Source: a virus
Length of the DNA stretch: 24,639 bases
Reading direction: 5' to 3' (one strand)
IMG/VR virus record: IMGVR_UViG_3300021957_007032
Location: 1 to 24,639 of that record
Both the position numbers and the translations under genes were made by a program. The notes below the pieces were generated by a model. That model was not told where the DNA came from, did no database searches, and worked only from the letters and a program-made list of their open reading frames with translations. Below, one piece after another: positions 127 to 21,158 of the stretch. Each line of letters starts with the position of its first letter. Within the stretch, counting starts at the first letter, position 1.

Positions 127-243
127 CTAAGCAGTTTGTTTACATGTGCATTTAGACATTATGCGATAGTTCAGTATTTTATGAACTAAAGCACGTCTTC
201 GTGCTTGAACAAACTTATTCCATTGATATGGTCTGTAAGTCAT
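127..243 (-). CDS. 38-residue basic peptide under a glutamine riboswitch
   Basis: This small ORF begins MTYRPYQWNKFV, continues with a basic stretch (QARRRALVHK), has two Cys near the end (CTCK) and stops at TAG 129-127. The start is backed by one of the strongest ribosome binding sites in the window (GAGGAGGG, about 5-6 bases upstream). A riboswitch-like leader and a following terminator make it a complete unit. In the Downstream-peptide class of glutamine riboswitches the controlled gene is typically a short ORF, and in cyanobacteria it includes the glutamine synthetase inactivating factor IF17. The arginine-rich helix here (residues 13-30) is loosely reminiscent of the IF7/IF17 C-terminal region. 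I cannot show homology by eye, so inhibition of glutamine synthetase is only a hypothesis. I see no membrane segment or signal peptide. Confidence 0.75.
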   Translation of the reverse strand: MTYRPYQWNKFVQARRRALVHKILNYRIMSKCTCKQTA

Positions 244-246
244 TGC

Positions 247-317
247 CACCCTCCTCTTTTTAAAGTTAGGTGCGTTCCTTCAGCGATTGCCTACTTCCGC
301 CCGTGAGGGTGAACGAT
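247..317 (-). promoter_or_regulatory. Glutamine riboswitch (glnA / Downstream-peptide class) with expression platform
   Basis: On the minus strand the RNA reads ATCGTTCACCC (317-307), then GGGCGGAAGTAGGC, then GCTGAAGGAACGC (about 284-272). These are the conserved elements I know for the glutamine aptamer: outer stem CGUUC/GAACG (315-311 with 277-273), a short C/G stem (CCC with GGG), the invariant GGAAGUAGG and the closing GAAGGAACGC. The platform follows at once. The ribosome binding sequence GAGGGTG (253-247) is a perfect 7-base complement of CACCCTC (311-305) in the aptamer 5' arm. Ligand-free RNA could therefore hide the ribosome site, while folding of the aptamer would free it. The element starts at the thyX stop codon. 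Assignment is by recalled consensus, not by a covariance search. Confidence 0.85.
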
Positions 318-949
318 TATGTCTTATTTATTAAATACTTCCACGAAACTGGAGCTATTCTGGATACTTCCTCTCCAAAGTACTCTGACAATTTTTGTAT
401 TTCTAATTGTGCATGTTCTTCTGTTCTTAGTTTATAAATTCTAGCAGCAGCTGCTAAAGATCCTGTTTCTATCCATTCTGTCATCATAGCTTGAGGTAAT
501 ATTGCTCTAGCTTGTTCAGGACAAATACCTTTTGTCAGCATTAACTTATAAGTATCTTCTGTATGTCTAATAGTTTCTTGATAAGCATAACTTATGTCTG
601 TGTCAGGATATATTTCACTAGAAGATCCTTGTTTTTTATTATCCGCAGCTAATCTCCATTGATGTGGAGACCAAAATTCTGGTGTATCTGAAACATATCT
701 TCTACTAGTTTCGTTTCTAGTAATTCCTATCATATGTTTAAACCATTGTCTTGCAACAAATATAGGAGCTTTAATTCTTACCTGATACGTAACTTGAGAA
801 AAAGGAGTCCAATGATCGTGTGTAGCTAAATATCTCAATAGTCCTTCATCTTTATCACTAAAATGTTTGACTTCCTTTGCAAAAGATACTCTTGCTGCGT
901 TTACAACAGAAACATCACTTCCCATACTATCAATCAGGTTTACGTTCAT
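317..949 (-). CDS. thyX: Flavin-dependent thymidylate synthase ThyX
   Basis: ThyX makes dTMP from dUMP using FAD, NADPH and methylene-tetrahydrofolate, supplying thymidine for phage DNA. The 210-residue protein fits the family size. It has the flavin- and substrate-binding core QWFKHMIGITRNETSRRY, where ThyX usually has RHRx7S followed by xRY. Here the triad reads KHM and the spacing to the serine is one residue longer, a variant I associate with marine T4-like phages. A C-terminal EEHAQLEIQKL matches the conserved AQxEIR-type helix. The start overlaps the clpP end by 20 bases. Its last codons carry a late-promoter-like box and its stop codon abuts the riboswitch. Confidence 0.93.
   Translation of the reverse strand: MNVNLIDSMGSDVSVVNAARVSFAKEVKHFSDKDEGLLRYLATHDHWTPFSQVTYQVRIKAPIFVARQWFKHMIGITRNETSRRYVSDTPEFWSPHQWRLAADNKKQGSSSEIYPDTDISYAYQETIRHTEDTYKLMLTKGICPEQARAILPQAMMTEWIETGSLAAAARIYKLRTEEHAQLEIQKLSEYFGEEVSRIAPVSWKYLINKT
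325..332 (-). promoter_or_regulatory. T4-late-like promoter box (AATAAATA)
   Basis: The minus-strand sequence TTTAATAAATAA overlaps the last thyX codons and contains AATAAATA, one mismatch from the T4 late box TATAAATA. Transcription starting about six bases beyond the box would begin almost exactly at the first base of the riboswitch. The same TTTAATAAATAA string precedes the 690-residue gene at 17754-17761. The window encodes a gp55-type late sigma factor that would read such a box. The AT-rich background makes chance matches possible. Confidence 0.45.
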
Positions 950-3539: not shown

Positions 3540-3738
3540 AACCTTCTCCTTCTACTTTATAAAAACCTTCTCCTTTGTCTAATAACTTATTCCATTCTTC
3601 AATGTCCATTATCTCAGCAAAGTAAGTCCAAGCAATTTCGATAGAATCGTATATAAAAACATTTATATTAGATTGCTGTAAACCTTCGTTAGTTTCTGTT
3701 GATGTAGTTCTTCTTATAAATAATTTTTCTTTATCCAT
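3496..3738 (-). CDS. Small unknown protein, 80 residues
   Basis: This is an acidic, soluble protein with INVFIYDSIEIAWTYFAEI (25-43) and a GEGFYKVEGEGYVNYIFIE strand-rich end. There is no signal peptide or membrane segment. It overlaps the upstream glycosyltransferase by 25 bases and the downstream 65-residue gene by 44 bases in another frame, an unusually long overlap for this window. The ribosome site is weak, so coupling to the upstream gene is likely. I do not recognise a family. Confidence 0.5.
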   Translation of the reverse strand: MDKEKLFIRRTTSTETNEGLQQSNINVFIYDSIEIAWTYFAEIMDIEEWNKLLDKGEGFYKVEGEGYVNYIFIETRKVSV

Positions 3739-4421
3739 TCGTCACTCACTTCTGTTGGATTGGGATTTCCATGGAATACACACACTTTACCTCCGGTAGG
3801 AATATGTGACCCAAACATTTTACTCCTGTCACCAGCATGTTTTCCTCTTTCAGATCCTTTTTTATATGACCACAGCCACTCATCAGGAAAAATATTAAGG
3901 AAATCTGGATAATAATTAACATAGCTTGATATAACATTTTGATCTCCAAAGAAATGTATTTGTTTTTGATAATCGTGCCATTTTTTATAATTTTGCATAT
4001 AGTATTGGTATATTCCTTTACTATTTTTTGTATTGAATCTTATAGCAGAGGAATTATATTCTTTTCCGGGGAGAAGACCGTTGTCAGGCCTGATAAAATC
4101 TCTAGTAACAGCAAAGGATTTATGCTCAAAGAAACAATCGATGTTATCAACAATAACAACGTCAAGATCAAAATATAAATATTCCCCATTTGGTAATACT
4201 CCTTCTTTAAACATTTGAAGTTTGTTCCACCAACCTACTTCGTCTGTATTTAATTCTACAACTTTGTATTTAGGATAAAGATCTATTTGATCTGTCAAAA
4301 CATAAAAATCAAAATCTTTAGTTGTGTTTCTTTTTACCATGTTATACAATCTATGTGTATAATCTTGTCCGTATTTTGTACCCCAATTTACACACACAAC
4401 GTTTGTTTTATCTATAGCCAT
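3714..4421 (-). CDS. Glycosyltransferase, GT-A fold, DxD type
   Basis: This 235-residue putative sugar transferase has the DxD in YFDLDVVIVDN (DLD at 85-87). An upstream GWWNKLQMF helix, FFGDQNVI (157-164) and a late VFHGNPNP (215-222) complete the pattern: the acidic GDQ and the terminal histidine are typical of GT8-like enzymes. No transmembrane segment is seen. It overlaps the pyruvyltransferase-like gene upstream by 10 bases. It probably uses a host nucleotide sugar, with specificity unknown. Confidence 0.8.
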   Translation of the reverse strand: MAIDKTNVVCVNWGTKYGQDYTHRLYNMVKRNTTKDFDFYVLTDQIDLYPKYKVVELNTDEVGWWNKLQMFKEGVLPNGEYLYFDLDVVIVDNIDCFFEHKSFAVTRDFIRPDNGLLPGKEYNSSAIRFNTKNSKGIYQYYMQNYKKWHDYQKQIHFFGDQNVISSYVNYYPDFLNIFPDEWLWSYKKGSERGKHAGDRSKMFGSHIPTGGKVCVFHGNPNPTEVSDEWIKKNYL

Positions 4422-5131
4422 ACCTTACTCGCAAATTCATAATTTAATTTTCTACAATGTTCTAAACTTATTATATTAGGCAAAGTGAAGAATTTTTCTT
4501 TTAATGGTTTTCTAAAATCTGTTTCATAATCTATTTTTACATCTTTGTTTAATAATTTACCCCAATACCAAACATGATATGAAGCAGTTAATATTTTTGA
4601 ATGATGTTTTATTTGATTAACAACATAGTCAATTTTTACCATATTGTTCATATGCTGTCCTTTAATACGTCTTTTAGTAGTTTTGCCACCACCCACTTTT
4701 AATATTTTACCTTTAGCTAATGGAGCAATATTTTTATTACCTTTAGGGTCATCAAAAATTTTATTTAAACAAGATACACATGGTACGAATTGATAAGGAG
4801 TATTAGTTTGTCTTATACCAACTAAGTCAAAATTTAAAAATAATGGATGGTTAAAATATTCTTCGTCTAATCCAGCTCCCCAAATTATTTTCTTTTTAGC
4901 TTTAATTTTTTTTGACCATTCCCATATAATATTGACCCAAGCATCTCCTGAAATAATTCCACCTCCGCCAACAATAAATTTATCACATTCAATACCATTT
5001 GGTATTTTATCTGTTAAATCAAATATTTTTATAGATTTTGAATCTTCAGGATGATAATGATAAGGAGAGCTATACCAATCGCCAGGATTTGATTTGTCTT
5101 TTCTATGTAAGTATACTGTCTTCAGGGTCAT
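4412..5131 (-). CDS. Polysaccharide pyruvyl transferase family protein
   Basis: The 239-residue protein has the layout of this family: NPGDWYSSP near the N terminus (15-23), a glycine turn GGGGI (55-59), WGAGLDEE (84-91), VGIRQ (104-108), and SYHVWYWGKLL (184-194), which matches the conserved S-x-H-x-x-x-x-x-L region near the active site. Family members add ketal pyruvate from PEP to sugars, or act as glycosyltransferase relatives. It is somewhat short for a full enzyme (often 300 residues or more). It would add negative charge to the glycan in this cassette. Confidence 0.75.
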   Translation of the reverse strand: MTLKTVYLHRKDKSNPGDWYSSPYHYHPEDSKSIKIFDLTDKIPNGIECDKFIVGGGGIISGDAWVNIIWEWSKKIKAKKKIIWGAGLDEEYFNHPLFLNFDLVGIRQTNTPYQFVPCVSCLNKIFDDPKGNKNIAPLAKGKILKVGGGKTTKRRIKGQHMNNMVKIDYVVNQIKHHSKILTASYHVWYWGKLLNKDVKIDYETDFRKPLKEKFFTLPNIISLEHCRKLNYEFASKVWL

Positions 5132-5777
5132 TATTAAATTTCCAAATTCCTACTTCGCTATTTGCATTCATTTCGTGTTGATAAGATTTATACATAACAA
5201 GACAATCTTTATACGAAGGAGGAACAGTACAATTTGAGGCTCCTTGAATTAATACCCATTTGTATTTTTTTCTAATACTATCTAAAAATTCTATTCTTAT
5301 ATTATCAGGCCAATGTTGTAATACTTCTTTGACTATTAATAATGTATGACTATTTCCACCTGGTAAGTTATCAAAATGTTCAATTTTTTGAAATATAGCT
5401 TTTGGATTAGTACAATTTAAATCAGCTCTTTCTAAAGCTGTTTCGCTTATATCAAAACCTTTATATTTTAAACTCTGAGGCCATTGTAAATCTTTGTATA
5501 AAAAATAAGGACCACATCCAAAATCATGTACTTCCTCTATATCAAATTTATTAACATGTTGAAATAATATCTTTAACCAAATTTGAGCGTTGTCTGGTAT
5601 TGATCCGGATCCAGCTCCATCTGCTTTTCTCCATCTATTTGTTTTATAGATATTTTCAAATATCTCTTCCATTTTATCATAATCAAATTCTTCGTGATCA
5701 TGACCTGTGGCATTTTGTATGTAAGTTGTTTCTCTGATTTTTTCTAATAAATCTTTATCTACTGATTGCTCGCTCAA
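5103..5777 (-). CDS. Class I SAM-dependent methyltransferase
   Basis: A 224-residue methyltransferase. Motif I is DFGCGP (85-90), motif II is GFDIS (107-111), and KEVLQHWP (150-157) corresponds to the later motif where catalytic or substrate residues lie. The likely start is TTG at 5777, because no in-frame ATG lies upstream before a stop and the first internal ATG is at residue 36. GGAG lies ten bases before the TTG. It overlaps the GT2-like gene by 23 bases. The substrate is probably a sugar or lipid carrier in this cassette, but no residue shows it. Confidence 0.78.
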   Translation of the reverse strand: MSEQSVDKDLLEKIRETTYIQNATGHDHEEFDYDKMEEIFENIYKTNRWRKADGAGSGSIPDNAQIWLKILFQHVNKFDIEEVHDFGCGPYFLYKDLQWPQSLKYKGFDISETALERADLNCTNPKAIFQKIEHFDNLPGGNSHTLLIVKEVLQHWPDNIRIEFLDSIRKKYKWVLIQGASNCTVPPSYKDCLVMYKSYQHEMNANSEVGIWKFNNDPEDSILT

Positions 5778-6414
5778 TTTTTTCTCGCTCCATAGGTATT
5801 AAATATTCTCTTGCCCATTGCATAACAAGTTCGTCTCTATTTGTTATCTTATTATCTCTAGATAACTTTGCTGTACTGTCTCCAATAATTTTTTTAGCTT
5901 TATTTGTTATATTTATTCGTTTTAAAACACCAGCTGCTTTTGCAATTTCAACAGCATAAGTATCAACATGCCAATGTAAAAATATTGGATGTGTCATGTA
6001 TCCCATCAATTCATACCATTGTCTAGTAACCATGAAATGTGGAGCTCCCCCTTTACCTCTTCCATCGTCTGGAACTAAGACACCTATTCTTTTAGGTAAA
6101 CTTAAACATTCATCTTCAGCTATAGTGTCCCAACCTTTAGTTTGCATTGTTTCTGCATCACCTTGCATAAACAAAATATGTCCTCCAGCTTTTTTAGCCA
6201 TAAGATTCCATCCATGATTAGAAAAATAATTACTTCCTATTGTTAAATATTTGTTATCTATCAATCTTTTATACTCAGATAACGTCTCATCATCTGAATT
6301 AAGATAAATGTTAAACTCAAGTTTATTTTCAGAAGTTTTAGTATCTAACATGCTTTCAATCATAGCTGCACACTTTTCTGGTCTTCCTCTAGATGGTGTA
6401 CAGATACTTATCAT
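5755..6414 (-). CDS. GT2-like glycosyltransferase
   Basis: The 219-residue protein opens with MISICTPSRGRPEKC, the strand-loop start typical of family 2 transferases. FNIYLNSDDETLSEY (34-48) corresponds to the first acidic site and ILFMQGDAETMQTKGW (80-95) to a DxD-like metal site (DAE). Cytosolic, with no membrane segment. It overlaps the epimerase end through an ATGA junction and so is translationally coupled to it. Confidence 0.75.
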   Translation of the reverse strand: MISICTPSRGRPEKCAAMIESMLDTKTSENKLEFNIYLNSDDETLSEYKRLIDNKYLTIGSNYFSNHGWNLMAKKAGGHILFMQGDAETMQTKGWDTIAEDECLSLPKRIGVLVPDDGRGKGGAPHFMVTRQWYELMGYMTHPIFLHWHVDTYAVEIAKAAGVLKRINITNKAKKIIGDSTAKLSRDNKITNRDELVMQWAREYLIPMEREKIERAISR

Positions 6415-7427
6415 ATTCTTTTTTCAGTCCATGTTTTTGGTGTTTTGTCATTTATTATTTCTAATGGCAAATGGTATTTAAAAGGTTTAGGATTTTTTCT
6501 AATCCAATCAGCAGTTTTTTTAACAGCTTCTTTAACACTAGTTGTTGTTTTGTAATTTAAATATTCTCTAGCTTTATTTGAAGAACACGTTGCATGTTTT
6601 ACTTCTTGAGGTCTACCGTTACTGTAATAAATTGGATCTTTGTTTAAACCAGTTTCATTAGAACATAAAGAAGCTAGTTCGTTAATTGTTATAGATTCTT
6701 CATCAGGTCCTATGTTAATAATTTCGTTAAAAAGATTTTCTTCTGTTCCCATTTTTTCCAAACATTGTATACAATCGCCGACATATGAAAAACACCTTGT
6801 CTGTGTACCATCTCCGTATATTATTGAAGGTTTACCTTGTAAATTTCTATTTAACATAATAGACATCACGTTTCTAAATGGATCGTCATACTTTTGATGT
6901 TCGCCAACAATATTATGAGGAACAGCAATGTTCCATTCTATTTCGTGTACTTTTCCAAGAACTTTAAGCACCTCCTCAGCTGCGACTTTTGCAATTCCAT
7001 AAGGGTCAACTGGTGCTGGGGACATTTCTTCTGTGAAAGGTGCTTTTTGATTACCATATCTTGCCATAGACGTGCAAAAGACGATTCTTTTGACTCCTGC
7101 TGAGATTGCAGCACTAAAAGTTGTAATTGAAGCTTCGAAGATGTTTCTTGTGATGAAACTAGGAGAGAAAACAGATAAGCCTTCATGAGCAGTAGCAGCA
7201 CAATGATAAAGAAGATCGCAACCTTCCATTGCTTTTTCCATACCTTTAAAATCACAGCAGTCAACGAGGTGAAAATCAACAAATTCTGGAACATTATCTT
7301 CTTCTCCTCCTATAAATGTATCATTGCCTACAACATCAAATCCTAACTGATTCATTCTTACTGCTAAGTGGTGACCTAAAAAACCTCCAACTCCTGTTAT
7401 AAAAACTTTCTTACGTTGATGTTCCAA
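6411..7427 (-). CDS. NAD-dependent sugar epimerase/dehydratase (extended SDR)
   Basis: This 338-residue extended short-chain dehydrogenase has the nucleotide-binding GVGGFLGHH at 12-20. The catalytic residues are Ser120 in CTSMARYG and the YGIAK tetrad (Tyr143, Lys147), with a downstream HNIVGEHQKYDDPFRNV substrate-binding stretch like UDP-glucose 4-epimerase relatives. It would make or epimerise a nucleotide sugar for the nearby transferases. The start appears to be TTG at 7427, since no in-frame ATG exists before the Rossmann strand. The gene overlaps the cupin end by 17 bases. Confidence 0.88.
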   Translation of the reverse strand: MEHQRKKVFITGVGGFLGHHLAVRMNQLGFDVVGNDTFIGGEEDNVPEFVDFHLVDCCDFKGMEKAMEGCDLLYHCAATAHEGLSVFSPSFITRNIFEASITTFSAAISAGVKRIVFCTSMARYGNQKAPFTEEMSPAPVDPYGIAKVAAEEVLKVLGKVHEIEWNIAVPHNIVGEHQKYDDPFRNVMSIMLNRNLQGKPSIIYGDGTQTRCFSYVGDCIQCLEKMGTEENLFNEIINIGPDEESITINELASLCSNETGLNKDPIYYSNGRPQEVKHATCSSNKAREYLNYKTTTSVKEAVKKTADWIRKNPKPFKYHLPLEIINDKTPKTWTEKRI

Positions 7428-7761
7428 TGGTTCTTCTCACTATATCGTCATGGTTAAATTCTGCCCAATATAATTCAAAAGCTACACCATCTTCAAGTCC
7501 TTCAAACTGATGAATCTTGCCAGGCTTTACTTGAGTAAATTGACCTGCTGTCAATATAGTCTCATCAACTAAACCTGACTGCTCGCCATCTTGCCAAACT
7601 CTTACAATCATTTTTCCAGACTCGACGAAAAAACCATTCCACTTATATCTATGTTCATGTTCTGAACATTTAAAGCCTTTTTTATATTCTATTCTATGAA
7701 ACTCAAGAACTCCATTAGCATGTATAAGTTCTGTTTGTCCCCATATTTTTCCTGCTTTCAT
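7411..7761 (-). CDS. Single-domain cupin
   Basis: The 116-residue cupin carries the metal-ligand signature GFKCSEHEHRYKWNGFFVESG (His35 and His37 in the first motif), and GKIHQFEG with His84 in the second. Such cupins include sugar epimerases, isomerases and small sensors. I prefer the ATG at 7761 over one 45 bases upstream: TTAGGAG lies five bases before it, directly at the end of the FkbM gene, and the cupin fold begins there. It probably acts on the nucleotide sugar handled by the epimerase next to it. Confidence 0.75.
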   Translation of the reverse strand: MKAGKIWGQTELIHANGVLEFHRIEYKKGFKCSEHEHRYKWNGFFVESGKMIVRVWQDGEQSGLVDETILTAGQFTQVKPGKIHQFEGLEDGVAFELYWAEFNHDDIVRRTIGTST

Positions 7762-7762
7762 A

Positions 7763-8275
7763 TTAACTCCTAACAAATATGTAATCGTGACCTTGTAGTT
7801 TATCAATTTCTTTTAAAACATAACCCCAACTTTCTAAAATCTCTTGTGAGTTGTTATCATCTCTGTTGATTTCACAACAAATAACGGGATTACATCTTTC
7901 TATAGTCTCTTTAGCTCCTTCTAGAACTTTAGGCTCATAACCTTCTACGTCAAGTTTTATAAAGCCAATATTATTATAGTTAAAACTATCTAATTTTTTT
8001 ATAATAACTTCTCTTTGACCATTTCCTTTTATTCTTCCAGCATTCATTGAAGTAAATCTAGTTGTATTATCATCTCCTAAAGCATGATTATATATCTCAA
8101 GATTATCTTGATACATGTATCTTGGAAATCTAAATTCAAATCCAATCACTTTTTTAAACTCTGGAGTCAAGTTTCTAGCAAACTCACCTCTTCTATAACC
8201 AACATCAATAGCTGTATCAAAATTTGTTACATATGGTTTACACTGTAACCAAGTTCCTAACCAAACGTCTTGCAT
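7763..8275 (-). CDS. FkbM family methyltransferase
   Basis: The 170-residue protein shows the full FkbM pattern. FDTAIDVGYRRGEFARNL (19-36) is the SAM-binding start and VIGFEFRF is at 43-50. The hallmark KKLDSFNYNNIGFIKLDVEG (93-112) leads into EPKVLEGAKETI. FkbM enzymes O-methylate sugars and natural products. It overlaps kdsA by 19 bases and ends at the cupin ribosome site. It is slightly short but complete, and the third methyltransferase of the cassette. Confidence 0.88.
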   Translation of the reverse strand: MQDVWLGTWLQCKPYVTNFDTAIDVGYRRGEFARNLTPEFKKVIGFEFRFPRYMYQDNLEIYNHALGDDNTTRFTSMNAGRIKGNGQREVIIKKLDSFNYNNIGFIKLDVEGYEPKVLEGAKETIERCNPVICCEINRDDNNSQEILESWGYVLKEIDKLQGHDYIFVRS

Positions 8276-9054
8276 TTATCGCTCATTTCTGTAAATAAAT
8301 TTAACTTTTCTATAATAGAAGATAAGTTTTTAATATCAATCATATTTGGTCCATCACTAGGAGCGTTATCGGGATCATCATGTACTTCCATAAAAAAACT
8401 ATCAATACCCATTGCTGCAGCAGCATATGATAATCTCGGAACATAATCTCTATTACCACCTGAACTAGTACCTAAACCTCCAGGTTTTTGAACACTGTGA
8501 GTAACGTCATATACAAATTTGTTATCAAAGTTGTCCATTATATATTGCATACCAGTAAAATCATTTACTAATGTATTATAACCAAAAGATGTTCCTCTCT
8601 CGGTTATCCAAACTTCTTTAGCATCGTCTGTTTTTGAAAGTATACCGTTCATGTCCCAAGGAGCTAGAAATTGTCCTTTTTTAACATTAACAATCATATC
8701 AGACTGACATGCTCTTTGTATAAGGTCTGTTTGTCTACATAAAAAAGCAGGTATTTGTATAACGTCTACAACGCCACTATCTGAAACATCAATTATATTA
8801 TTGTTTTCATGTACATCTGTAAGAAACATCATGTTTGGATAAATTAATTTTAGAGCTTGAAAATCTAACAAAGTTTCTACAATCCCAACACCTCTTTTTC
8901 CACTCATTGAACTTCTGTTGGCTTTATCAAACGATGCTTTATAATATAAGTTTTTTACTTTATTATTTGTTGCCTTTAGAATTGATTCTAATAATTTTTT
9001 TGAATGTTCAAGATTTTCATGTTGACATGGTCCTATAATTAAAGTGTCTATCAT
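8257..9054 (-). CDS. kdsA: 3-deoxy-8-phosphooctulonate (Kdo-8-P) synthase KdsA
   Basis: KdsA condenses arabinose-5-phosphate with PEP to give Kdo-8-phosphate, the precursor of the Kdo sugar joining lipid A to the LPS core and present in some capsules. The 265-residue protein has all family landmarks: YKASFDKANRSS (38-49), TDVHE (79-83), QIPAFLCRQTD (100-110), VKKGQFLAPWDM (124-135) and EVHDDPDNAPSDGPN (223-237). The presumed metal ligands Cys10 (GPC), His186 (THSVQ), Glu223 and Asp234 are all there, so this is the metal-dependent type. It forms ATGA with the nuclease upstream. A phage copy suggests boosting or redirecting Kdo supply for envelope remodelling. Confidence 0.96.
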   Translation of the reverse strand: MIDTLIIGPCQHENLEHSKKLLESILKATNNKVKNLYYKASFDKANRSSMSGKRGVGIVETLLDFQALKLIYPNMMFLTDVHENNNIIDVSDSGVVDVIQIPAFLCRQTDLIQRACQSDMIVNVKKGQFLAPWDMNGILSKTDDAKEVWITERGTSFGYNTLVNDFTGMQYIMDNFDNKFVYDVTHSVQKPGGLGTSSGGNRDYVPRLSYAAAAMGIDSFFMEVHDDPDNAPSDGPNMIDIKNLSSIIEKLNLFTEMSDKCKTFG

Positions 9055-9461
9055 AAAGTTACTAACTCTCTATTTTTTAAATGTTGTTCTTCTATATCAA
9101 CCTTTGATTGACCAAAATAAGCAACAGCGTGGTGCTTATCAATACAATATTGGTTAATAGATTTATCTGCATAGTTTGTTGTTCTCCACATTTCACCTAA
9201 AATTCTTCCAAACTTACCTTTACCATCTTTTTTGGTTTTTATAATAAGACCTTCTTTATCATCACACATTCCTTTGAGAAAATTTTTAGAAGCTAAACCA
9301 TATTTTTTCTCTTCCTTGTCTCTTGTTCTTGATTCAGGTGAATCTATTCCATACATTCTTATTCTTTGTTTCCTAAGCCAAACGCCAAATCCTAAATCAA
9401 TATCAACGTCAATAGTATCACCATCTACAACTCTCAGTAACTTACATTTATACTCAAACAT
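9051..9461 (-). CDS. Staphylococcal-nuclease-like (SNase) nuclease
   Basis: The 136-residue SNase domain has an intact active site: Asp13 and Asp15 in VVDGDT, Arg35, Asp40 and Glu43 in RIRMYGIDSPES, and Arg86 in GKFGRILGE. These correspond to the calcium ligands and the two arginines of the classic enzyme. There is no signal peptide, so it would act inside the cell on DNA or RNA unless released by lysis. The gene lies inside the sugar cassette, joined to its neighbours by TAATG and ATGA junctions, so it is co-expressed with them. Host DNA or RNA breakdown for nucleotides is a reasonable role. Confidence 0.9.
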   Translation of the reverse strand: MFEYKCKLLRVVDGDTIDVDIDLGFGVWLRKQRIRMYGIDSPESRTRDKEEKKYGLASKNFLKGMCDDKEGLIIKTKKDGKGKFGRILGEMWRTTNYADKSINQYCIDKHHAVAYFGQSKVDIEEQHLKNRELVTL

Positions 9462-10228
9462 TATGGTCTCCTTTCAATATCTTCTTCACTCAACTCAGTT
9501 CCAAACCAAGTCTCAATAATTTTAGCAGGTTTTTTTCCTTCATTGTAAGCTTTGTGCCAAGTCAATCTAGGAATATCAGCACTTTGTTTAACATGAAAGT
9601 TCTCAGTTAATTTATCACCGTTTGAATATTCTAAATCTATAGTTACATTTCCTTCTACTATATGCCAATGTTCAGATCTACACGTATGTCTTTGATCACT
9701 TAAACTTTTGCCAGGTTCAATTGTAAGTTCTTTTACAGCCCATCCATTTTGTTCATCTAAAACTCTGTACCATCCCCATGGTCTAATAACAATAGGAGCT
9801 TTAAAATCTTCTAAAATTTTTGAGGATGCATTTTTTTTATCTTTTCCTCCAATTCCAAATTTAAAATTAATATCAAATTCAGATAATAAAGGAGACTCCA
9901 TTTCTGGGATATTTTGTTTAGTTCTATCTCCACCATTCATAAAAATAAGTTCTCCGTCTGGAAACATAGCAGCTGCTCTTAAAATTATATCAATTGCTGA
10001 ATCGTCTGTATCATCAAAACTAGTAGCATAGTTTACATCATGCATAGATTTTAAAATAATTTTTCTTTCAATAAAAGGAAGAAATGGTCTACCTTTTTTT
10101 CTTGTTAACCATTCGTCAGAATTTACTCCTACAAGTAAAAAATCACAATGTTGTTTAGCTGCTTTTACGTAAGCAACGTGTCCTGAATGTATTGGGTCAA
10201 ATCCCCCAGATATTATTCCTATTTTCAT
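9461..10228 (-). CDS. Sugar nucleotidyltransferase fused to a mannose-6-phosphate-isomerase-type cupin
   Basis: Residues 1-142 form a cytidylyltransferase-like domain: GGFDPIHSGH (8-17, HxGH nucleotide site), GVNSDEWLTRKKGRP (34-48), GGDR (99-102) and KNASSKIL (132-139). It resembles the C-terminal half of HldE, which activates heptose phosphates. Residues about 144-255 are a cupin like the type II mannose-6-phosphate isomerase tail: IRPWGWYRVL (148-157), LTIEPGKSLSDQRH (168-181), RSEHWHIVEG (184-193), with His181, His187 and His225 as likely metal ligands. One chain could thus isomerise and activate a sugar phosphate. Both flanks are ATGA/TAATG junctions. The exact sugar is unknown. Confidence 0.85.
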   Translation of the reverse strand: MKIGIISGGFDPIHSGHVAYVKAAKQHCDFLLVGVNSDEWLTRKKGRPFLPFIERKIILKSMHDVNYATSFDDTDDSAIDIILRAAAMFPDGELIFMNGGDRTKQNIPEMESPLLSEFDINFKFGIGGKDKKNASSKILEDFKAPIVIRPWGWYRVLDEQNGWAVKELTIEPGKSLSDQRHTCRSEHWHIVEGNVTIDLEYSNGDKLTENFHVKQSADIPRLTWHKAYNEGKKPAKIIETWFGTELSEEDIERRP

Positions 10229-10860
10229 AAATTAAAATCCCTATCACTTGTTAATGATTTTGTATCACTAACTATTGCACATCTTGGTTGTATTCTTTCT
10301 ATTGTAACACCACATCTATCTGATATATGCATGTCAGCGGCTGTATAACCTTGTTTAAACGCAGATTCAACAAGTTTTTTAGCTGCATGAGGTTTTACAA
10401 TATAAGCATAAGCTCCTTTAGAAGTCTTAACACCTTTTCTTACTTCATAAAATTCTTCTACTTCTAATGCATTTTCTGCATAGTCAGGATTAGGTTCAAA
10501 TCTCCATGCATCTAAATGTAAAATATCTTGGAACTTTACATCAGGAATTGATTTTACAATTCTAGCATCATGTTCTAATATAAGAAAATTTTCGTTTTGT
10601 TTAGCACATTGTTCCCACAGAGAAAAATGTGACATAAAGCATCCTCTGACTCCAGGTTTACTGTTTTTTATTTCATAAAGTTTAGGACCTGGCGAATAAG
10701 GTTTAAGTCCTAATTCTTCAATAGCATGATCTGCTTTTGATGGAACAAATCCATTAACTATCTCTGCACTTATACCATTTTTGATACAAGAAGTTTGAGC
10801 TTCTAAAGCTGAATGCATACTATGCAATATTCCTTCTACCTGTATTATAAATGCCTTCAT
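10225..10860 (-). CDS. GT25 family (LPS-type) glycosyltransferase
   Basis: The 211-residue protein has the GT25 landmarks: GVRGCFMSHFSLWEQC (70-85) and FLILEHDARI (92-101), where bacterial LPS galactosyltransferases have LxxGExGCxxSH and VLEDD. I place the start at 10860 (MKAFIIQVEG), not 33 bases upstream. There it forms an ATGA junction with the gene before it and sits after an AAGGAG site. A possible outer-core or capsule sugar transferase. Confidence 0.82.
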   Translation of the reverse strand: MKAFIIQVEGILHSMHSALEAQTSCIKNGISAEIVNGFVPSKADHAIEELGLKPYSPGPKLYEIKNSKPGVRGCFMSHFSLWEQCAKQNENFLILEHDARIVKSIPDVKFQDILHLDAWRFEPNPDYAENALEVEEFYEVRKGVKTSKGAYAYIVKPHAAKKLVESAFKQGYTAADMHISDRCGVTIERIQPRCAIVSDTKSLTSDRDFNL

Positions 10861-11519
10861 AATCCATACATCTCCTTCAAAGTGTCTTTCCATTGCTTGT
10901 TATAGGGACATTCTCTATATTTTTCAAACCATGGACCTCCATCTGTATAATGAACTATCATTGGATCTTCTTCATAATAACCTGCTAGACTATTCCATTT
11001 GTTTTTTAAACTTCCAATACTATTTGCCCAATTCATTCTATGCAAATACATAGGTGTTTCTTCATTAACTAATTTTGGTGTTAACTTTTCACATTTAGAA
11101 TTGTTAAACAACATGACAGAAGACCAATTTTTTTTAGGATATATGTGTTGCATTTGTCCATCCATCTTCATAGTTGATTTAGGACTATAATCATGTTTAA
11201 CACACCACACATCATGGTCACCTTTAATTTCTTTAAATATGTGTTTCATATCTCCAAAAGCTAGGACATCACAATCCATAAACAACGAATATCCTTCATA
11301 ACCAGATAAGAAAGGGACTAAAAACCTACTAATTGTAAACTCAGTCGAAGCTTTTTTATCTCCTGCTCTCCAATAACATCCTTGCTCTCTCAATTCGTAT
11401 AATTTAAGAGGTATAACTTCTATATTAGGATCATATTTAAGTATTGAATATCTAGCAACTTGATATGCTATATCTTCTCTACTATCCCACCCAATAAAAA
11501 CTTTTAACTTTTTATCCAT
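10857..11519 (-). CDS. Glycosyltransferase, GT-A fold, DxD type
   Basis: The 220-residue transferase starts with KVFIGWDSREDIAYQVARYS, a motif of a GT8-like group common in marine phages and bacteria. The metal site is MDCDVL (DCD at 82-84), preceded by TEFTISRFLVP. GGPWFEKYREC near the C terminus is typical of the same group. The start is taken at 11519, where GGAG lies seven bases upstream, not 36 bases earlier. It overlaps the capsule-like gene upstream by eight bases. Confidence 0.82.
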   Translation of the reverse strand: MDKKLKVFIGWDSREDIAYQVARYSILKYDPNIEVIPLKLYELREQGCYWRAGDKKASTEFTISRFLVPFLSGYEGYSLFMDCDVLAFGDMKHIFKEIKGDHDVWCVKHDYSPKSTMKMDGQMQHIYPKKNWSSVMLFNNSKCEKLTPKLVNEETPMYLHRMNWANSIGSLKNKWNSLAGYYEEDPMIVHYTDGGPWFEKYRECPYNKQWKDTLKEMYGL

Positions 11520-12297
11520 ATGCATTCTCCATTGAAGTTTCCCATGCAAATCCATTATTAAACTCGTGTTTGTGAAATGAATGATACATACAATTGTTGA
11601 TTATTTTTTGTCTGTCAGGCTCTACGTTTAACTTATCTGTTTCTAAATCTTCCATTTTAAAAGAAGCAAAAAAAGCTGGACAGTATTTAAAACTTATTGT
11701 AGGAACACCTTTTATCATAGCATCTATAGCTAAATTAGAACCAAAACTTACTACACAATAAGCATCTCTTAGTTGTTCTTCCCAAGGTGGAGCTTTTTTT
11801 CCTTTAGCAGGTTTAGGTCTTATGACTAAATTTCTACCTGAAAATTCATTAATTGAATGTATTAACTTATTGAGCCAATTTATCTCTTCAAAGGCATCCA
11901 TATATGGTAACGATGGAGGAAGAATAAGAATGTTTTTACTATTCGATTTATTCTCCCTCCAAGGTTGCAACACACTTAGCTCCGGTGGTGTTCTATCATT
12001 TGGTCTATCTAGTAATCTTGTAGGTGCTGTTCCTTTAAAGGTAACTCTTTTCCAAAAAGGACCATAACCATTATCCATATAAAACCAATTTTTATCTTGT
12101 CTTACAGACTCTCTACATACAGCTCCACAACCTCTTAATGTTCCAGTAACGAATAAATTATCCATATCATTAGGAAACGTTGGGTTCCAATCAGGGTTAT
12201 CTTCACATTTAAGATATCTAACATTTTCTTGAGTTAACATGCCAAGCATAACTTGTTTAGCAGGTTTAGGATCTAAAAATGCATAATCTATCCCCAT
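11512..12297 (-). CDS. Capsule-synthesis-like (GT-B) protein, paralog 1
   Basis: The 261-residue protein resembles the C-terminal half of capsule polysaccharide synthesis proteins (KpsC/KpsS-like Kdo transferases). It has LVIRPKPAKGK (157-167), then AYCVVSFGSNLAIDAMIKGVP (179-199), the donor-binding strand and helix of GT-B enzymes. The same pair of motifs recurs in three other proteins of this cassette (13072-14028, 13997-14806, 14779-15630). With kdsA nearby, Kdo transfer is an attractive but unproven role. Confidence 0.72.
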   Translation of the reverse strand: MGIDYAFLDPKPAKQVMLGMLTQENVRYLKCEDNPDWNPTFPNDMDNLFVTGTLRGCGAVCRESVRQDKNWFYMDNGYGPFWKRVTFKGTAPTRLLDRPNDRTPPELSVLQPWRENKSNSKNILILPPSLPYMDAFEEINWLNKLIHSINEFSGRNLVIRPKPAKGKKAPPWEEQLRDAYCVVSFGSNLAIDAMIKGVPTISFKYCPAFFASFKMEDLETDKLNVEPDRQKIINNCMYHSFHKHEFNNGFAWETSMENAYG

Positions 12298-13085
12298 ATT
12301 TGTACTCTTTCTTTTGAGAATCCTACATCCTTACGTCTACCTTTTACATGATCCATATACTCACCTAAGATACCTTTAACAAAAGGATGCATCTTTCTCA
12401 CTTGTGTTTGATCTATTTTTACTTTAGCATTTTTAGCTGGTTGTGATAAATCATATGCTTTACATAATCCTGCGTCTCTCATTTCTCTCATTTCATGATC
12501 CCACACAATACTATCATGCCATCCGAGGTCATTGTATTTCTCAAACATCAAACCTTCATCATACATAGCTCTTATACGTTTAAAGTATTCTTTTGTTTCA
12601 GATAAAGTTGTATCCCATATCATAAAACCACACTCAGCGTATTTGTATCCTCTTTCAAGCAAAGACATAAAACATCCTTCTTTGACCAGTGTGTTAAAAA
12701 ATTCTAATGGAATAGCTTTAACTGGAACCACGTCGCCATCAATCCATCCAATATATCTAGCATCATCTTTTCTATTTTCATAGTGAGCCAATACTGCATA
12801 TACTTTATGACTAAATCTTACATGTTCATATTCAAAACTTTTATATTGTTTATCTCTAGGCTTCTTTCCTGAGTATTTTTCTTTATATTCTTTATAACCT
12901 TTTACTTCCTTATCAAAATCTAACATTTTAATTTTCTTAGGTTGTAGATCTACATTTGTTTCTTGTGCATATGCGTAATGTAGAACACCTTCTGGAAGTG
13001 CTTGATCAAAATAGTGTACGTGATTTCTTCCGTATCTGTCATATCCTGCTTGGTGAAATGTTGTACAAAAACTAAAAGTGTCCAA
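12288..13085 (-). CDS. Putative glycosyltransferase with DGD site
   Basis: The 265-residue protein has YIGWIDGDVVPVKAIP (111-126), a DxD-type metal site (DGD at 116-118), after a FSHKVYAVLAH helix. Further on, ECGFMIWD and GWHDSIVWDHEM resemble the acceptor and acidic regions of GT-A enzymes. The start looks like TTG at 13085, with AAAGGA about eight bases upstream and no in-frame ATG nearby. It separates capsule-like paralog 1 from the other three. Specificity is unknown. Confidence 0.68.
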   Translation of the reverse strand: MDTFSFCTTFHQAGYDRYGRNHVHYFDQALPEGVLHYAYAQETNVDLQPKKIKMLDFDKEVKGYKEYKEKYSGKKPRDKQYKSFEYEHVRFSHKVYAVLAHYENRKDDARYIGWIDGDVVPVKAIPLEFFNTLVKEGCFMSLLERGYKYAECGFMIWDTTLSETKEYFKRIRAMYDEGLMFEKYNDLGWHDSIVWDHEMREMRDAGLCKAYDLSQPAKNAKVKIDQTQVRKMHPFVKGILGEYMDHVKGRRKDVGFSKERVQIWG

Positions 13086-14028
13086 GTGTTTTTCCTTTCT
13101 GTAAATAATAATTAATAGTGGCTGGATTTTCTAACTCATTAATATGCCACGATGTGAAAGCCCAACCACTTAAATGATTGGTTCTATCGTTCCAGTTAAA
13201 TTTTTCAATATTCTCTAACATTTCTAAATTATTCTCACATGCATTATAAGCTATACACCTTTTGTCTAGTGCAAAAGTTGGTATTCCTTCTACAATTGCC
13301 TCAACAGCAGCGCTACTACTATGTGTAACAACAGCGAAAGACCTACGGATTGAATCCAATACTGATCGTCTAGCTCTTTCAGCGTATTCAATATTGACGT
13401 TTTCAAATCCTTCTTTAATGGCTTCTGGACCTCTCCTGTCTGGAGATGGATGTGCTCTGATTGTAATGTTTCTCTTAGTAATCTTTCTAATGTGTTCAAT
13501 TGTATCCCTCGCATATTGCCAATATGGTTTTGTATCATCATATTGCCATCCTTTTTCTGATTGTAGCAAGAATAGAATACTACCATCTTTGTTTATTATA
13601 GGATCTTTTTCTGTAAAGTTAAAATTTTTCTTAAACGTATCATATCTTGAACTGTCCATGTCTTTGTTAAAGAAATCACCTGTTCCAACACAGTCATTCA
13701 AACCTAATCTAAACATACCTGTTTCAGATACATTTAATTTATTTCTTATATAAACAGAATATAAACCTGTGTCTATATGAAAGGTTGGAATGTTTTTTTC
13801 TAATAAATTTTTTTTTAATAATGCTCTGTCAGTTCCTGTTTTTCTCTTTGTAACAGAACCAAACATGAAAGCAACATCAACGTCGTGAGCGTTTTGATCT
13901 TCATTATATACAACTTCGTGATTCAATTGCTCACATGATTTTTGTATCATTTTAAGAGCAGAGAATATTGGATTTTGTAGTGTTCTTTTGCTAGCTTTAA
14001 CTGAGCAGCCAGCGATTTGAATTTTCAT
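13072..14028 (-). CDS. Capsule-synthesis-like (GT-B) protein, paralog 2
   Basis: The 318-residue protein has ITIRAHPSPDRRG (188-200) and VVTHSSSAAVEAIVEGIP (233-250). These are the RxHP and S/T-H-S-S-x-x-x-x-E-A stretches typical of capsule synthesis and related GT-B sugar transferases, where His and Ser contact the donor phosphate. I start at ATG 14028 (MKIQIAG), not at a GTG 15 bases earlier: an AAGG site fits the ATG and it opens a clean first beta strand. It overlaps paralog 3 by 32 bases. Confidence 0.74.
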   Translation of the reverse strand: MKIQIAGCSVKASKRTLQNPIFSALKMIQKSCEQLNHEVVYNEDQNAHDVDVAFMFGSVTKRKTGTDRALLKKNLLEKNIPTFHIDTGLYSVYIRNKLNVSETGMFRLGLNDCVGTGDFFNKDMDSSRYDTFKKNFNFTEKDPIINKDGSILFLLQSEKGWQYDDTKPYWQYARDTIEHIRKITKRNITIRAHPSPDRRGPEAIKEGFENVNIEYAERARRSVLDSIRRSFAVVTHSSSAAVEAIVEGIPTFALDKRCIAYNACENNLEMLENIEKFNWNDRTNHLSGWAFTSWHINELENPATINYYLQKGKTLGHF

Positions 14029-14806
14029 AACATATACCTTCACGCATTTCTTTAATTGAGTATTGCTTATAAGCTAAATTAAAAAACAATTGTTCTCTAT
14101 TAAAGTATTCTGGTTTATTTATCTTGGAGAAATCTCTATTTGTACACCAAGCAGATGGAGCACACCTATGAGTACTAAAAACTGGAACTCCTATCTTTAA
14201 AGCATCTATAGCTACAATACTACCGCTTACAACAACAGCATGTGCATTAGCTAAATCTAAACTAATTTGATTTATACCAGCAACACTTGGACCACTGGTA
14301 CCGTTACCTCTAGGTTTCTTTCTTACTTCAATAGGTCTATTAGTATGACATCTAAGTGCTCTTGTAACATCAAAGATCCATTTATCAACACTTTTTCCAT
14401 GCATATGTTGAGTCATAGTTTCGCTTGAAGGACAAATTACAATTTTATCATGATAGTCAACATATTCAAAAAACTCAATATCATGACCCAACTTTTCAAA
14501 TCTATCTGAAGGTACATCTAATTTTCTATTATCATGTAAACCATTATAACACCATCTCCAGTACGTATTATCCCAATCTTCGTTGTTAGGATCATATCTT
14601 CCACTATATGGCATGTCACAAAAAATAAATCTATCTTTAACCATATATTCTGAATTATTACCAATCAGACCCCACAATACAAACATGTCAGTATTATGTT
14701 CGTTTATTTTTGCTCCTGGATACCCTTGTTCTAAGGCTGCGTATATTCTTTCCATCTTTGGTGATGGTCTTGGTTGGATTAAAGATAAGGTCGGAGTCTG
14801 TTCCAT
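13997..14806 (-). CDS. Capsule-synthesis-like (GT-B) protein, paralog 3
   Basis: The 269-residue relative of the two flanking genes has IEVRKKPRGNG (159-169) in place of RPHP, and AVVVSGSIVAIDALKIGVPVF (190-210) in place of the HSS helix. The histidine and proline of the first motif are changed, so donor specificity may differ or activity may be lost. The ATG has AAGGA six bases upstream. It overlaps paralog 4 by 28 bases. Confidence 0.7.
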   Translation of the reverse strand: MEQTPTLSLIQPRPSPKMERIYAALEQGYPGAKINEHNTDMFVLWGLIGNNSEYMVKDRFIFCDMPYSGRYDPNNEDWDNTYWRWCYNGLHDNRKLDVPSDRFEKLGHDIEFFEYVDYHDKIVICPSSETMTQHMHGKSVDKWIFDVTRALRCHTNRPIEVRKKPRGNGTSGPSVAGINQISLDLANAHAVVVSGSIVAIDALKIGVPVFSTHRCAPSAWCTNRDFSKINKPEYFNREQLFFNLAYKQYSIKEMREGICYENSNRWLLS

Positions 14807-15630
14807 GGAATTCCTTCTTTGATTTCATCTGTCCACCACTCCGTGTGTACGAGTTCATGTAACCACTGAGTTCTATCAACTCTTGGCGGATTTTTGATAT
14901 CTTCCCAGTTACGTATAGATAGAGGATAAGCAATACTAGCAGATCCAGTAAAAATATGTACTCCATCTAAAACAGCCTCCAATGCTGGTCCTGATGAATG
15001 ATTCACTACACACCAAGATCTTTTTAAAATATCATTAAAATTAACTGAGTCGCTTAGACCTGTTGACTTTGGTAAATCAAAATACAATCCAGGTATTTCG
15101 TCTGATATTTTTTTATAATTTGTTACCTTATCTCTTGGATGAGGTCTTATTACTATAGGTTTATCTATATGTTTCCTTATTTGGTCTACGTTATTTTTTA
15201 TCCATATATCTGTAGAAGGCATACCTTTCCACTGTGAACTGTCTTGTCTTTGAGTTGCTATTGTAACAAATTCACCATCTTTTACATAAGGTTTTACTCT
15301 TATATTAAATTTACTGACTCTATCAATGTCAAGATGTTCTTTGTTTGCAAAGTTTGCTAAATTGTTAATACCTCCAATACCAACTCTCCATGTTTTATCT
15401 CTGAAAATACTTCCTACTTCAATTACTATTATTGGTTTATTTTGAGATGTAAAATGATCCCAAACCAATTTATTTTTTCTCATTCTTCCAGTGAATAATA
15501 TTGACCATATGACTGCTACATCAGCATCCATATCATTATACACAACATCTTCAGAACATCCTTCTGCAAATGCTTTAAAAATTGGAGGGCTATTAAGAGC
15601 ACCATAATCTGTAAATAGCGAAACTTTCAT
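14779..15630 (-). CDS. Capsule-synthesis-like (GT-B) protein, paralog 4, head of the sugar cassette
   Basis: The 283-residue protein has VIRPHPRDK (160-168) and CVVNHSSGPALEAVLDGV (207-224), the best-kept donor-site motifs of the four paralogs. The N-terminal half (DVVYNDMDADVAVIWSIL) is like paralogs 2 and 3. It is the first sugar gene in transcription order. No ribosome binding site precedes the ATG; instead TATAAT lies exactly six bases upstream, so the mRNA may begin at the start codon. It probably transfers an acidic sugar to lipid A or a capsule chain. Confidence 0.74.
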   Translation of the reverse strand: MKVSLFTDYGALNSPPIFKAFAEGCSEDVVYNDMDADVAVIWSILFTGRMRKNKLVWDHFTSQNKPIIVIEVGSIFRDKTWRVGIGGINNLANFANKEHLDIDRVSKFNIRVKPYVKDGEFVTIATQRQDSSQWKGMPSTDIWIKNNVDQIRKHIDKPIVIRPHPRDKVTNYKKISDEIPGLYFDLPKSTGLSDSVNFNDILKRSWCVVNHSSGPALEAVLDGVHIFTGSASIAYPLSIRNWEDIKNPPRVDRTQWLHELVHTEWWTDEIKEGIPWNRLRPYL

Positions 15631-19472: not shown

Positions 19473-20508
19473 TTTCGTCCATCCTTAGTGCGTCATCATA
19501 AATTTCTAACATTAATTTTTTTATAGCTTCTTTACTATTCTCAGTTGCAACATCATCAATATATTCCTTAATTAAATCTGTTGTTGCTATAACCTTTATC
19601 ATGTCACCTACATTGTCTTCGTTATACTCTTCAAACGATTCAATAATTTTTAACTCAAAAGGATCTTGATGATTAATTTTATCAACAAACTTTTCGAACA
19701 TTTCAAAATCTGATTTTTTTCTAACTATCAATTTTATAAAAGAATTGTTTAACCTATCTATGTTATAATCTGTACCATCTTCCCAATATATTTTATTGAA
19801 AAAAGTATTGTTATTTTGTATAAAATCCATTGATAAATCTGTGGTGTCTAATATCCAAAAACCGTTTTTACCTGTAGCATCGTTCCAATTCATTTGGTAA
19901 GGTGTACCAACGTAATTAATATTTCCTCTTTGTGACTGTGTATGATAATGTCCTGATATTACGTATTTCCATTCATTAAAATCAGATACTTTCAATTCAG
20001 CTCGAGCTGTGTGACCTGGATGCATCAACATACCATCTATTTCAAAATGACCTACTAATACTTCACCACCTTTTTTAATTACATCATTACATTGTTCTTC
20101 GTTTTCTTTACATATCCAGGGCACTAAAGTGAAATTCACACCATCTAGTTCAATATTTGTTGGTTTATCGTAATACTCTATACCGTCTTCATGATTAATA
20201 ATCTGCGATGGTGAGTTATTTTCCAACGAATATCTTAAAGGAATATCGTGGTTACCAATTATACCATAACACTTCATATTTCGTTTCTGTAAATTATTAA
20301 CAAACATCTTTTTCTGAAAAGCCATAGTTTGTAAGTTAATCCACTTTCGGTTATCAAAATAATCACCGGTTTGTATTATTGTTGTTATTTTATGTTTGTC
20401 TATATATGGCCAAAAAACGTCTGTCCAAAATTTCTCTTGCCAATATTGTATTGTCAAATTAGAGTTACGAGCACCAAAATGTGTGTCTCCAACTATCGCT
20501 ATTTTCAT
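19459..20508 (-). CDS. 47: gp47 recombination endonuclease subunit (SbcD/Mre11-like nuclease)
   Basis: This is a metallophosphoesterase nuclease partner of gp46. The 349 residues are close to T4 gp47. Metal-binding motifs appear in order: GDTHFG (7-12), TGDYFDNR (47-54), GNHDIP (85-90), GHFEIDGM and SGHYHTQ. The C-terminal third is acidic and probably docks on gp46. It forms a TAATG junction with the gp55 gene, so the two are coupled. Confidence 0.96.
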   Translation of the reverse strand: MKIAIVGDTHFGARNSNLTIQYWQEKFWTDVFWPYIDKHKITTIIQTGDYFDNRKWINLQTMAFQKKMFVNNLQKRNMKCYGIIGNHDIPLRYSLENNSPSQIINHEDGIEYYDKPTNIELDGVNFTLVPWICKENEEQCNDVIKKGGEVLVGHFEIDGMLMHPGHTARAELKVSDFNEWKYVISGHYHTQSQRGNINYVGTPYQMNWNDATGKNGFWILDTTDLSMDFIQNNNTFFNKIYWEDGTDYNIDRLNNSFIKLIVRKKSDFEMFEKFVDKINHQDPFELKIIESFEEYNEDNVGDMIKVIATTDLIKEYIDDVATENSKEAIKKLMLEIYDDALRMDEIDSI

Positions 20509-21158
20509 TAATTGTCCTTTGGTTCAGCTTCTGATAATGGTGTACCTTTGTACGAATCTCGTTCTGATTTATTCCAACCAGTTTTTAATCTAAATCCTGT
20601 TGATCTTTTAGATATATTCTTTCTTCCTTCTTCTATGTCTCCTAATTTTTGATCAGCAATTGCTTGAGCGTCTGTTGTTTGTTGTGATACAAATTCAGGA
20701 TCGTTCATGTGTGTCAACTCAGCTTTTTGTATAAGTTTCAAATTTAACTCATATTTCTTTTTTTCTTTTTTAATTGTTTGAACCATATGTGAAAACAATA
20801 TTTGTGTTACGTAAGCAAAACCATTATTGAATCTATTACCATCAAATAAATGCATATAATTAACAGCACCTAATATTGCATCTTGTATCATTTCTTCTCT
20901 ATATACATATCCTCTAAAATTAGGTGATAGAGATAATCTCGTGGCCATTTTGATAACACATTGACCTAAATATTTTCCCATTATAGGTCTTTCTTTACCA
21001 TCTGCTATCATTTCTTTACAGTTACGTGCATACGCATCAAGTGCTTTTGTAAATTCTTTGTTATTAACATAGTGCTCACTAGTTGGTTTTAACCTAGTTC
21101 TTTTTTGTTTAACTTTTGGAGGATTATTATGTCCTATTGTTGGTGTTTCTTCACTCAT
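20508..21158 (-). CDS. 55: gp55-type late transcription sigma factor
   Basis: T4 gp55 directs host RNA polymerase to the short TATAAATA late promoters. This 216-residue protein shares the gp55 core: PTSEHYVNNKEFTKALDAYA, then KYLGQCVIKMATRLSLSPNF, then YREEMIQDAILGAVNYMHLF, RFNNGFAYVTQILFSHMVQTI and KKEKKK. The core matches the T4 layout of region 2-like helices. Its first 14 residues contain TIGHNNPP, a short motif I know from the N termini of unrelated phage proteins. It starts two bases after the uvsW stop. Candidate target boxes are at 325-332, 17754-17761 and 23040-23047. Confidence 0.93.
   Translation of the reverse strand: MSEETPTIGHNNPPKVKQKRTRLKPTSEHYVNNKEFTKALDAYARNCKEMIADGKERPIMGKYLGQCVIKMATRLSLSPNFRGYVYREEMIQDAILGAVNYMHLFDGNRFNNGFAYVTQILFSHMVQTIKKEKKKYELNLKLIQKAELTHMNDPEFVSQQTTDAQAIADQKLGDIEEGRKNISKRSTGFRLKTGWNKSERDSYKGTPLSEAEPKDN

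Follow-up and report, generated by a model that had tools for sequence, protein, structure and literature searches.

Most descriptions of glutamine riboswitches come from cyanobacteria. Glutamine motifs were reported to reduce expression upon nitrogen depletion (PMC2864571), and in cyanobacteria synthesis of the glutamine synthetase inhibitor IF17 is stimulated by high glutamine (reviewed in PMC7760959). Phage glutamine riboswitches have already been published for Melnitz EXVC044M and Mosig EXVC030M, and the Melnitz riboswitch was proposed to control ssrA (PMC9004378); in pelagimyophages, a study using a different program found no riboswitches (PMC7029224). We searched open-licence papers and found no description of a phage cassette that couples such a riboswitch to a micropeptide.

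Here, we analyzed a 24,639-nucleotide stretch of viral DNA (the window), which belongs to a marine T4-like phage (GC 30-32%). Its UvsW and gp46 lie at about the same distance (42-47%) from those of cyanophages, Melnitz and, for UvsW, Mosig; the best score is with Melnitz. The window also contains a long one-strand gene run (3714-15630) of apparent glycosyltransferases, methyltransferases, a nucleotidyltransferase and a sugar epimerase, forming a large sugar-modification block. On the minus strand, we found that the Rfam model of the glutamine riboswitch (glnA, RF01739) matches positions 317-269 over its full length (model 1-53) with 56.6 bits as compared to a gathering score of 35 (E 3.2e-10), and this is the sole Rfam match above threshold in the whole window. 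Stem P1 of the aptamer is formed by 315-311 paired with 277-273. The match supports the proposal of an earlier note, made from the letters alone, that a putative phage-borne glutamine riboswitch lies after thyX.

The order of features on the minus strand is thyX (317-949; phrog_85 thymidylate synthase, stop codon 319-317), the aptamer (269-317), the Shine-Dalgarno (SD) sequence AGAGGAGGG (249-257), a 38-codon ORF (127-243), an intrinsic terminator (81-108; 12-pair stem followed by a T-run) and a sigma-70-like promoter (51-78; consensus match only) that marks where the unit ends and would serve the following gene. The unit is self-contained and spans about 250 bases. The strong ribosome-binding site, short basic ORF and terminator that the earlier note had assigned to an independent unit are all there, and many related phages agree; the span of 127-332 that it gave fits the distance from the promoter box to the stop codon, but the aptamer proper occupies only 269-317.

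The unit starts with a T4 late-promoter-like box, AATAAATA (325-332, minus strand), which lies inside the terminal bases of thyX, 9 nt before the first base of P1, and agrees with TATAAATA at seven of eight positions. The window also encodes the expected user of this box, a gp55-like late sigma factor (20508-21158, minus strand; phrog_234 late sigma transcription factor, E 1.7e-41), so both marks of a T4-type late promoter, a positioned TATAAATA-like box and a gp55-type sigma factor in the same phage, are present. To the late-promoter-like box of the earlier note we can add a positional enrichment across the group: a TAAATA core ends 6-10 nt upstream of the aptamer in 154 of the 187 phage units listed, as compared to a mean of 1.95 and a maximum of 7 units expected from dinucleotide shuffles, and the TAAATA stretch was absent from every search pattern used to collect the units. 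Many of the units without TAAATA at that offset belong to the Melnitz type or contain the second aptamer of a tandem. Tandem glutamine aptamers occur in phage contigs L028, L076, L081, L364, L374, L383, L392 and L402, where the second copy has no late box of its own. Transcription of the cassette is likely late, and given the position of the box and the gp55-like sigma factor, a late mRNA should begin almost directly with the aptamer.

The five bases directly 3' of P1 pair with the SD region. This hairpin (247-272, minus strand), drawn from covariation and folding, joins CACCU (272-268) with GGGUG (251-247) and has an inner stem of 265-262 with 257-254. Among the 170 units listed, the pairing is CACCU/GGGUG in 70, CACUU/GAGUG in 88 and CACUU/AAGUG in 12, with no crossed cases; some scan patterns fixed the 5' side of this pairing, while the SD side was never fixed. 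Among the loci up to L118, nearly all of which came from a scan without 5'-side bias, the corresponding counts are 47 for CACCU/GGGUG, 9 for CACUU/GAGUG and 4 for the AAGUG kind. Both CACCU and CACUU states are found inside three ORF families, including the window type, and whole-leader exchange between phages could make the independent covariation events fewer than they appear. When eight leaders were folded, the shared SD hairpin had a probability of 0.96-1.0 in seven of them. The exception is the window leader, in which folding favours a longer helix of the aptamer 5' strand with the SD and start codon over the shared hairpin. Folding of the window also predicts a switch of the P2 5' arm with the SD (ACCCUC/GAGGGU); L278 does not conserve it, and we kept it as a lineage-specific extra. 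Control of translation through SD access is, as a prediction from these leaders, well supported.

The ORF behind AGAGGAGGG (ATG at 243, stop codon 129-127) encodes a basic micropeptide, MTYRPYQWNKFVQARRRALVHKILNYRIMSKCTCKQTA, with nine Lys/Arg and no acidic residues, and AlphaFold predicts a single helix from residue 5 to residue 32; for a peptide of a 65-aa family found behind the same aptamer, pLDDT is 62. The window peptide has no match in Pfam (including DUF4278, the YRG-motif family PF14105), PHROGs, NCBIfam or PDB sequences; a weak PF14105 match is present in another phage unit, L035. We found the window-type peptide in 11 further contigs, each with an aptamer and a late-type box upstream, in a scan that used 20 bases of the window ORF and did not require the aptamer. 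In six window-type variants the core MxYRPxQWxxFxxARxRAxVHKILNYR is invariant, with its HKILNYR part imposed by the search pattern for L466-L472 and with L278, L302, L306 and L338 also found via the leader; the tails are variable and some carry a C-x-C motif. The gene neighbourhoods of the window-type cassette vary, with thyX upstream in the window and an unrelated 382-codon ORF in L278. In the neighbouring contig L002, the aptamer is unchanged and the peptide identical, with one synonymous change in the first 28 codons, whereas the flanking non-coding sequence has diverged and the terminator stem differs in sequence yet still forms a hairpin. Inside the peptide gene, an inverted repeat (GCACG-NNNN-CGTGC, window 183-205) is kept in nearly all window-type variants; it could reflect the codons used for ARxRA, or form a hairpin in the RNA.

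Beyond the window type, pattern scans of viral contigs gave at least 192 non-redundant phage aptamer units, at least 177 of which then have an ORF (counted if at least 22 codons; median 50 aa) from several ORF families. A same-strand gene begins within <60 nt after the short ORF in only 7 of 153 cases. In phage contigs L058, L077, L086 and L111, the ORF behind the aptamer has 76 aa (KQLVxDQRF...), and a similar 77-aa ORF takes this place in L146 and L232, contigs binned as a Rickettsiales MAG. In SAR11- and SAR86-type genomes (L126, L144, L151 and other marine bacterial loci), RF01739 lies, often in tandem, before apparent glutamine synthetase and ammonium transporter genes, names that are our reading of the sequence. 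RF01739 is present in 29 of 60 genomes of the order of a SAR11-type genome, with up to eight copies each; neither the window-type nor the 65-aa peptide had a homolog in the same 60 genomes in a search run without a positive control.

In Melnitz, RF01739 (L119, 2499-2547) is followed by an unannotated 32-codon ORF, MTLYQQWCYLKAQKEYRRRQKILMYFRIRLKG, and within 2499-2668 this ORF lies on the strand opposite the annotated MelnitzEXVC044M_89. The annotated tmRNA feature of the Melnitz record overlaps the aptamer; the Rfam tmRNA models stop short of it, at 2446 and 2491. The position of the riboswitch 3' of the tmRNA and its anti-SD pairing favour the micropeptide over ssrA as its target, and it probably does not regulate the tmRNA. 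In Mosig, RF01739 is preceded by CATAAATA, a late-type box, and followed by a 51-codon ORF; the SD pairing deviates in sequence (CUCUUU with AAAGGAG), and the principle is retained. Similarity between the window and Melnitz peptides is not above that of shuffled sequences, so we treat it as resemblance only. Pelagiphages HTVC104P, HTVC023P and HTVC103P (L242, L243, L246) encode a 51-aa relative of the Mosig peptide; there was no RF01739 match near it in any of the three, and none elsewhere in the HTVC104P and HTVC023P genomes.

Taken together, these data suggest that the window unit is a translational glutamine switch that is transcribed late and is probably turned ON by glutamine. Transcription by the late sigma factor of the phage would start just past AATAAATA, so that a short mRNA begins with the aptamer. 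In the absence of glutamine, the CACCU/GGGUG hairpin, and in the window phage also the longer helix with the aptamer 5' strand, would hide the SD. When glutamine is bound, as the aptamer is predicted to allow, P1 would close, the conserved CA 3' of P1 would join the bound fold, the hairpin would open and the micropeptide would be translated. The basic single-helix peptide would then act on a target in the host or the phage; by analogy with IF17, which glutamine induces in cyanobacteria, host nitrogen assimilation is the most plausible class. Starting from what computation gives directly (the aptamer, the late box, the covarying SD pairing, the recurrence and the conserved ORF), we consider a late-transcribed glutamine ON cassette with a micropeptide the best explanation as a whole and a reasonably probable one. 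A nitrogen target of the peptide, argued from the ligand and from analogy, is tentative. We are similarly doubtful of the broader reading in which marine T4-like phages share one cassette (late promoter, aptamer, SD hairpin) with apparently unrelated micropeptides, each of which would reprogram host nitrogen assimilation above a glutamine threshold.

Since the SD hairpin starts at the base after P1 and does not overlap it, both ON and OFF switches can be drawn. In an OFF switch, glutamine-bound P1 would stack on the SD hairpin and stabilize it, and peptide synthesis would be confined to low glutamine, where it might, for instance, ease a nitrogen shortage while phage is being produced; that P1 and the hairpin can form together would suit this arrangement, as would the rise of host glnA, gltBD and amt transcripts in pelagiphage infection (PMC12753301). 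However, the CA of the conserved aptamer flank also starts the anti-SD strand, and related elements are reported as ON under nitrogen sufficiency, both in the drop in expression with glutamine motifs (PMC2864571) and in the synthesis of IF17 (PMC7760959), so we judge the ON direction likely and the OFF direction unlikely. What the peptide does could also differ from our reading: glutamine might rise as virion protein synthesis slows and trigger lysis or act as a late-timing signal, with the peptide acting on the phage programme or the membrane and not on nitrogen metabolism. The late promoter is compatible with such a signal, on whose role in lysis timing the Melnitz paper speculated (PMC9004378), as are the helical, strongly basic character of the peptide and its aromatic and hydrophobic residues, but the peptide has no holin-like or membrane-protein family match in Pfam or PHROGs and several apparently unrelated ORF families lie behind the same switch, which makes it improbable.

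That the riboswitch serves a neighbouring gene (in Melnitz the tmRNA, in the window thyX or the gene that follows) and the short ORF is incidental follows the published account of Melnitz, with its overlapping tmRNA annotation (PMC9004378). We think this very unlikely: the aptamer lies 3' of thyX in the window and, in Melnitz, 3' of where the tmRNA models end, the anti-SD strand covaries with the SD of the short ORF itself, third codon positions in the 50-aa family change far more than second positions (15593 vs 6407), and in the window a terminator and a new promoter follow the ORF. The differing gene neighbourhoods of the cassettes might also be expected of a decayed, non-functional aptamer copy left by recombination, but we give this almost no weight, as the aptamer core is intact at 56.6 bits and both aptamer and peptide are the same in the window and L002 despite diverged non-coding flanks.

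The recurrence of the cassette, the position of its late promoter and the covarying SD pairing go beyond what the earlier note observed. That many marine phages carry this cassette, with several distinct tiny proteins, suggests that phages read the nitrogen state of the host late in infection. If the late-transcribed glutamine switch is correct, marine phages would possess an RNA that senses host nitrogen state directly and links it to late gene expression, and the published phage glutamine riboswitches would control overlooked micropeptides; Mosig in SAR11 and Melnitz in OM43 are ready experimental systems for peptide function.

Compared with other glutamine-responsive systems, the window unit has in common with Downstream-peptide RNA (RF01704; PMC2864571) the notion that short ORFs are governed by a glutamine-type RNA. 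The earlier note had proposed kinship with that class, but the RF01704 model gives no match in the window even at E<=10, and membership is not supported. The proposed glutamine-controlled synthesis of a small basic protein also resembles gifB/IF17 of cyanobacteria, whose product is Arg-rich (PMC7760959), and an IF7-like ORF does lie behind RF01739 in L128. The phage peptides show no sequence relation to IF7 (gifA), and kinship with the glutamine synthetase inhibitors IF7/IF17 is not supported: there is no NCBIfam match for the window, Melnitz-type, 50-aa or 63-aa peptides, and an apparent motif in the 63-65 aa family failed in hhalign (probability <1% for three phage groups). With the glnA-type riboswitch RF01739, the window RNA shares aptamer sequence and structure, and short ORFs behind RF01739 are also found in cyanobacteria; in contrast, the window unit is phage-borne, lies behind a T4-type late promoter and has a compact SD hairpin that starts at the end of P1. 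The closest systems are Melnitz and Mosig. Their peptides are not demonstrably homologous to that of the window, and in Melnitz the riboswitch was published as a control of ssrA with its ORF left unannotated; like the window, both have a single-copy RF01739, an SD hairpin and a short basic ORF in that order, and both riboswitches fit the same plan as the window unit.
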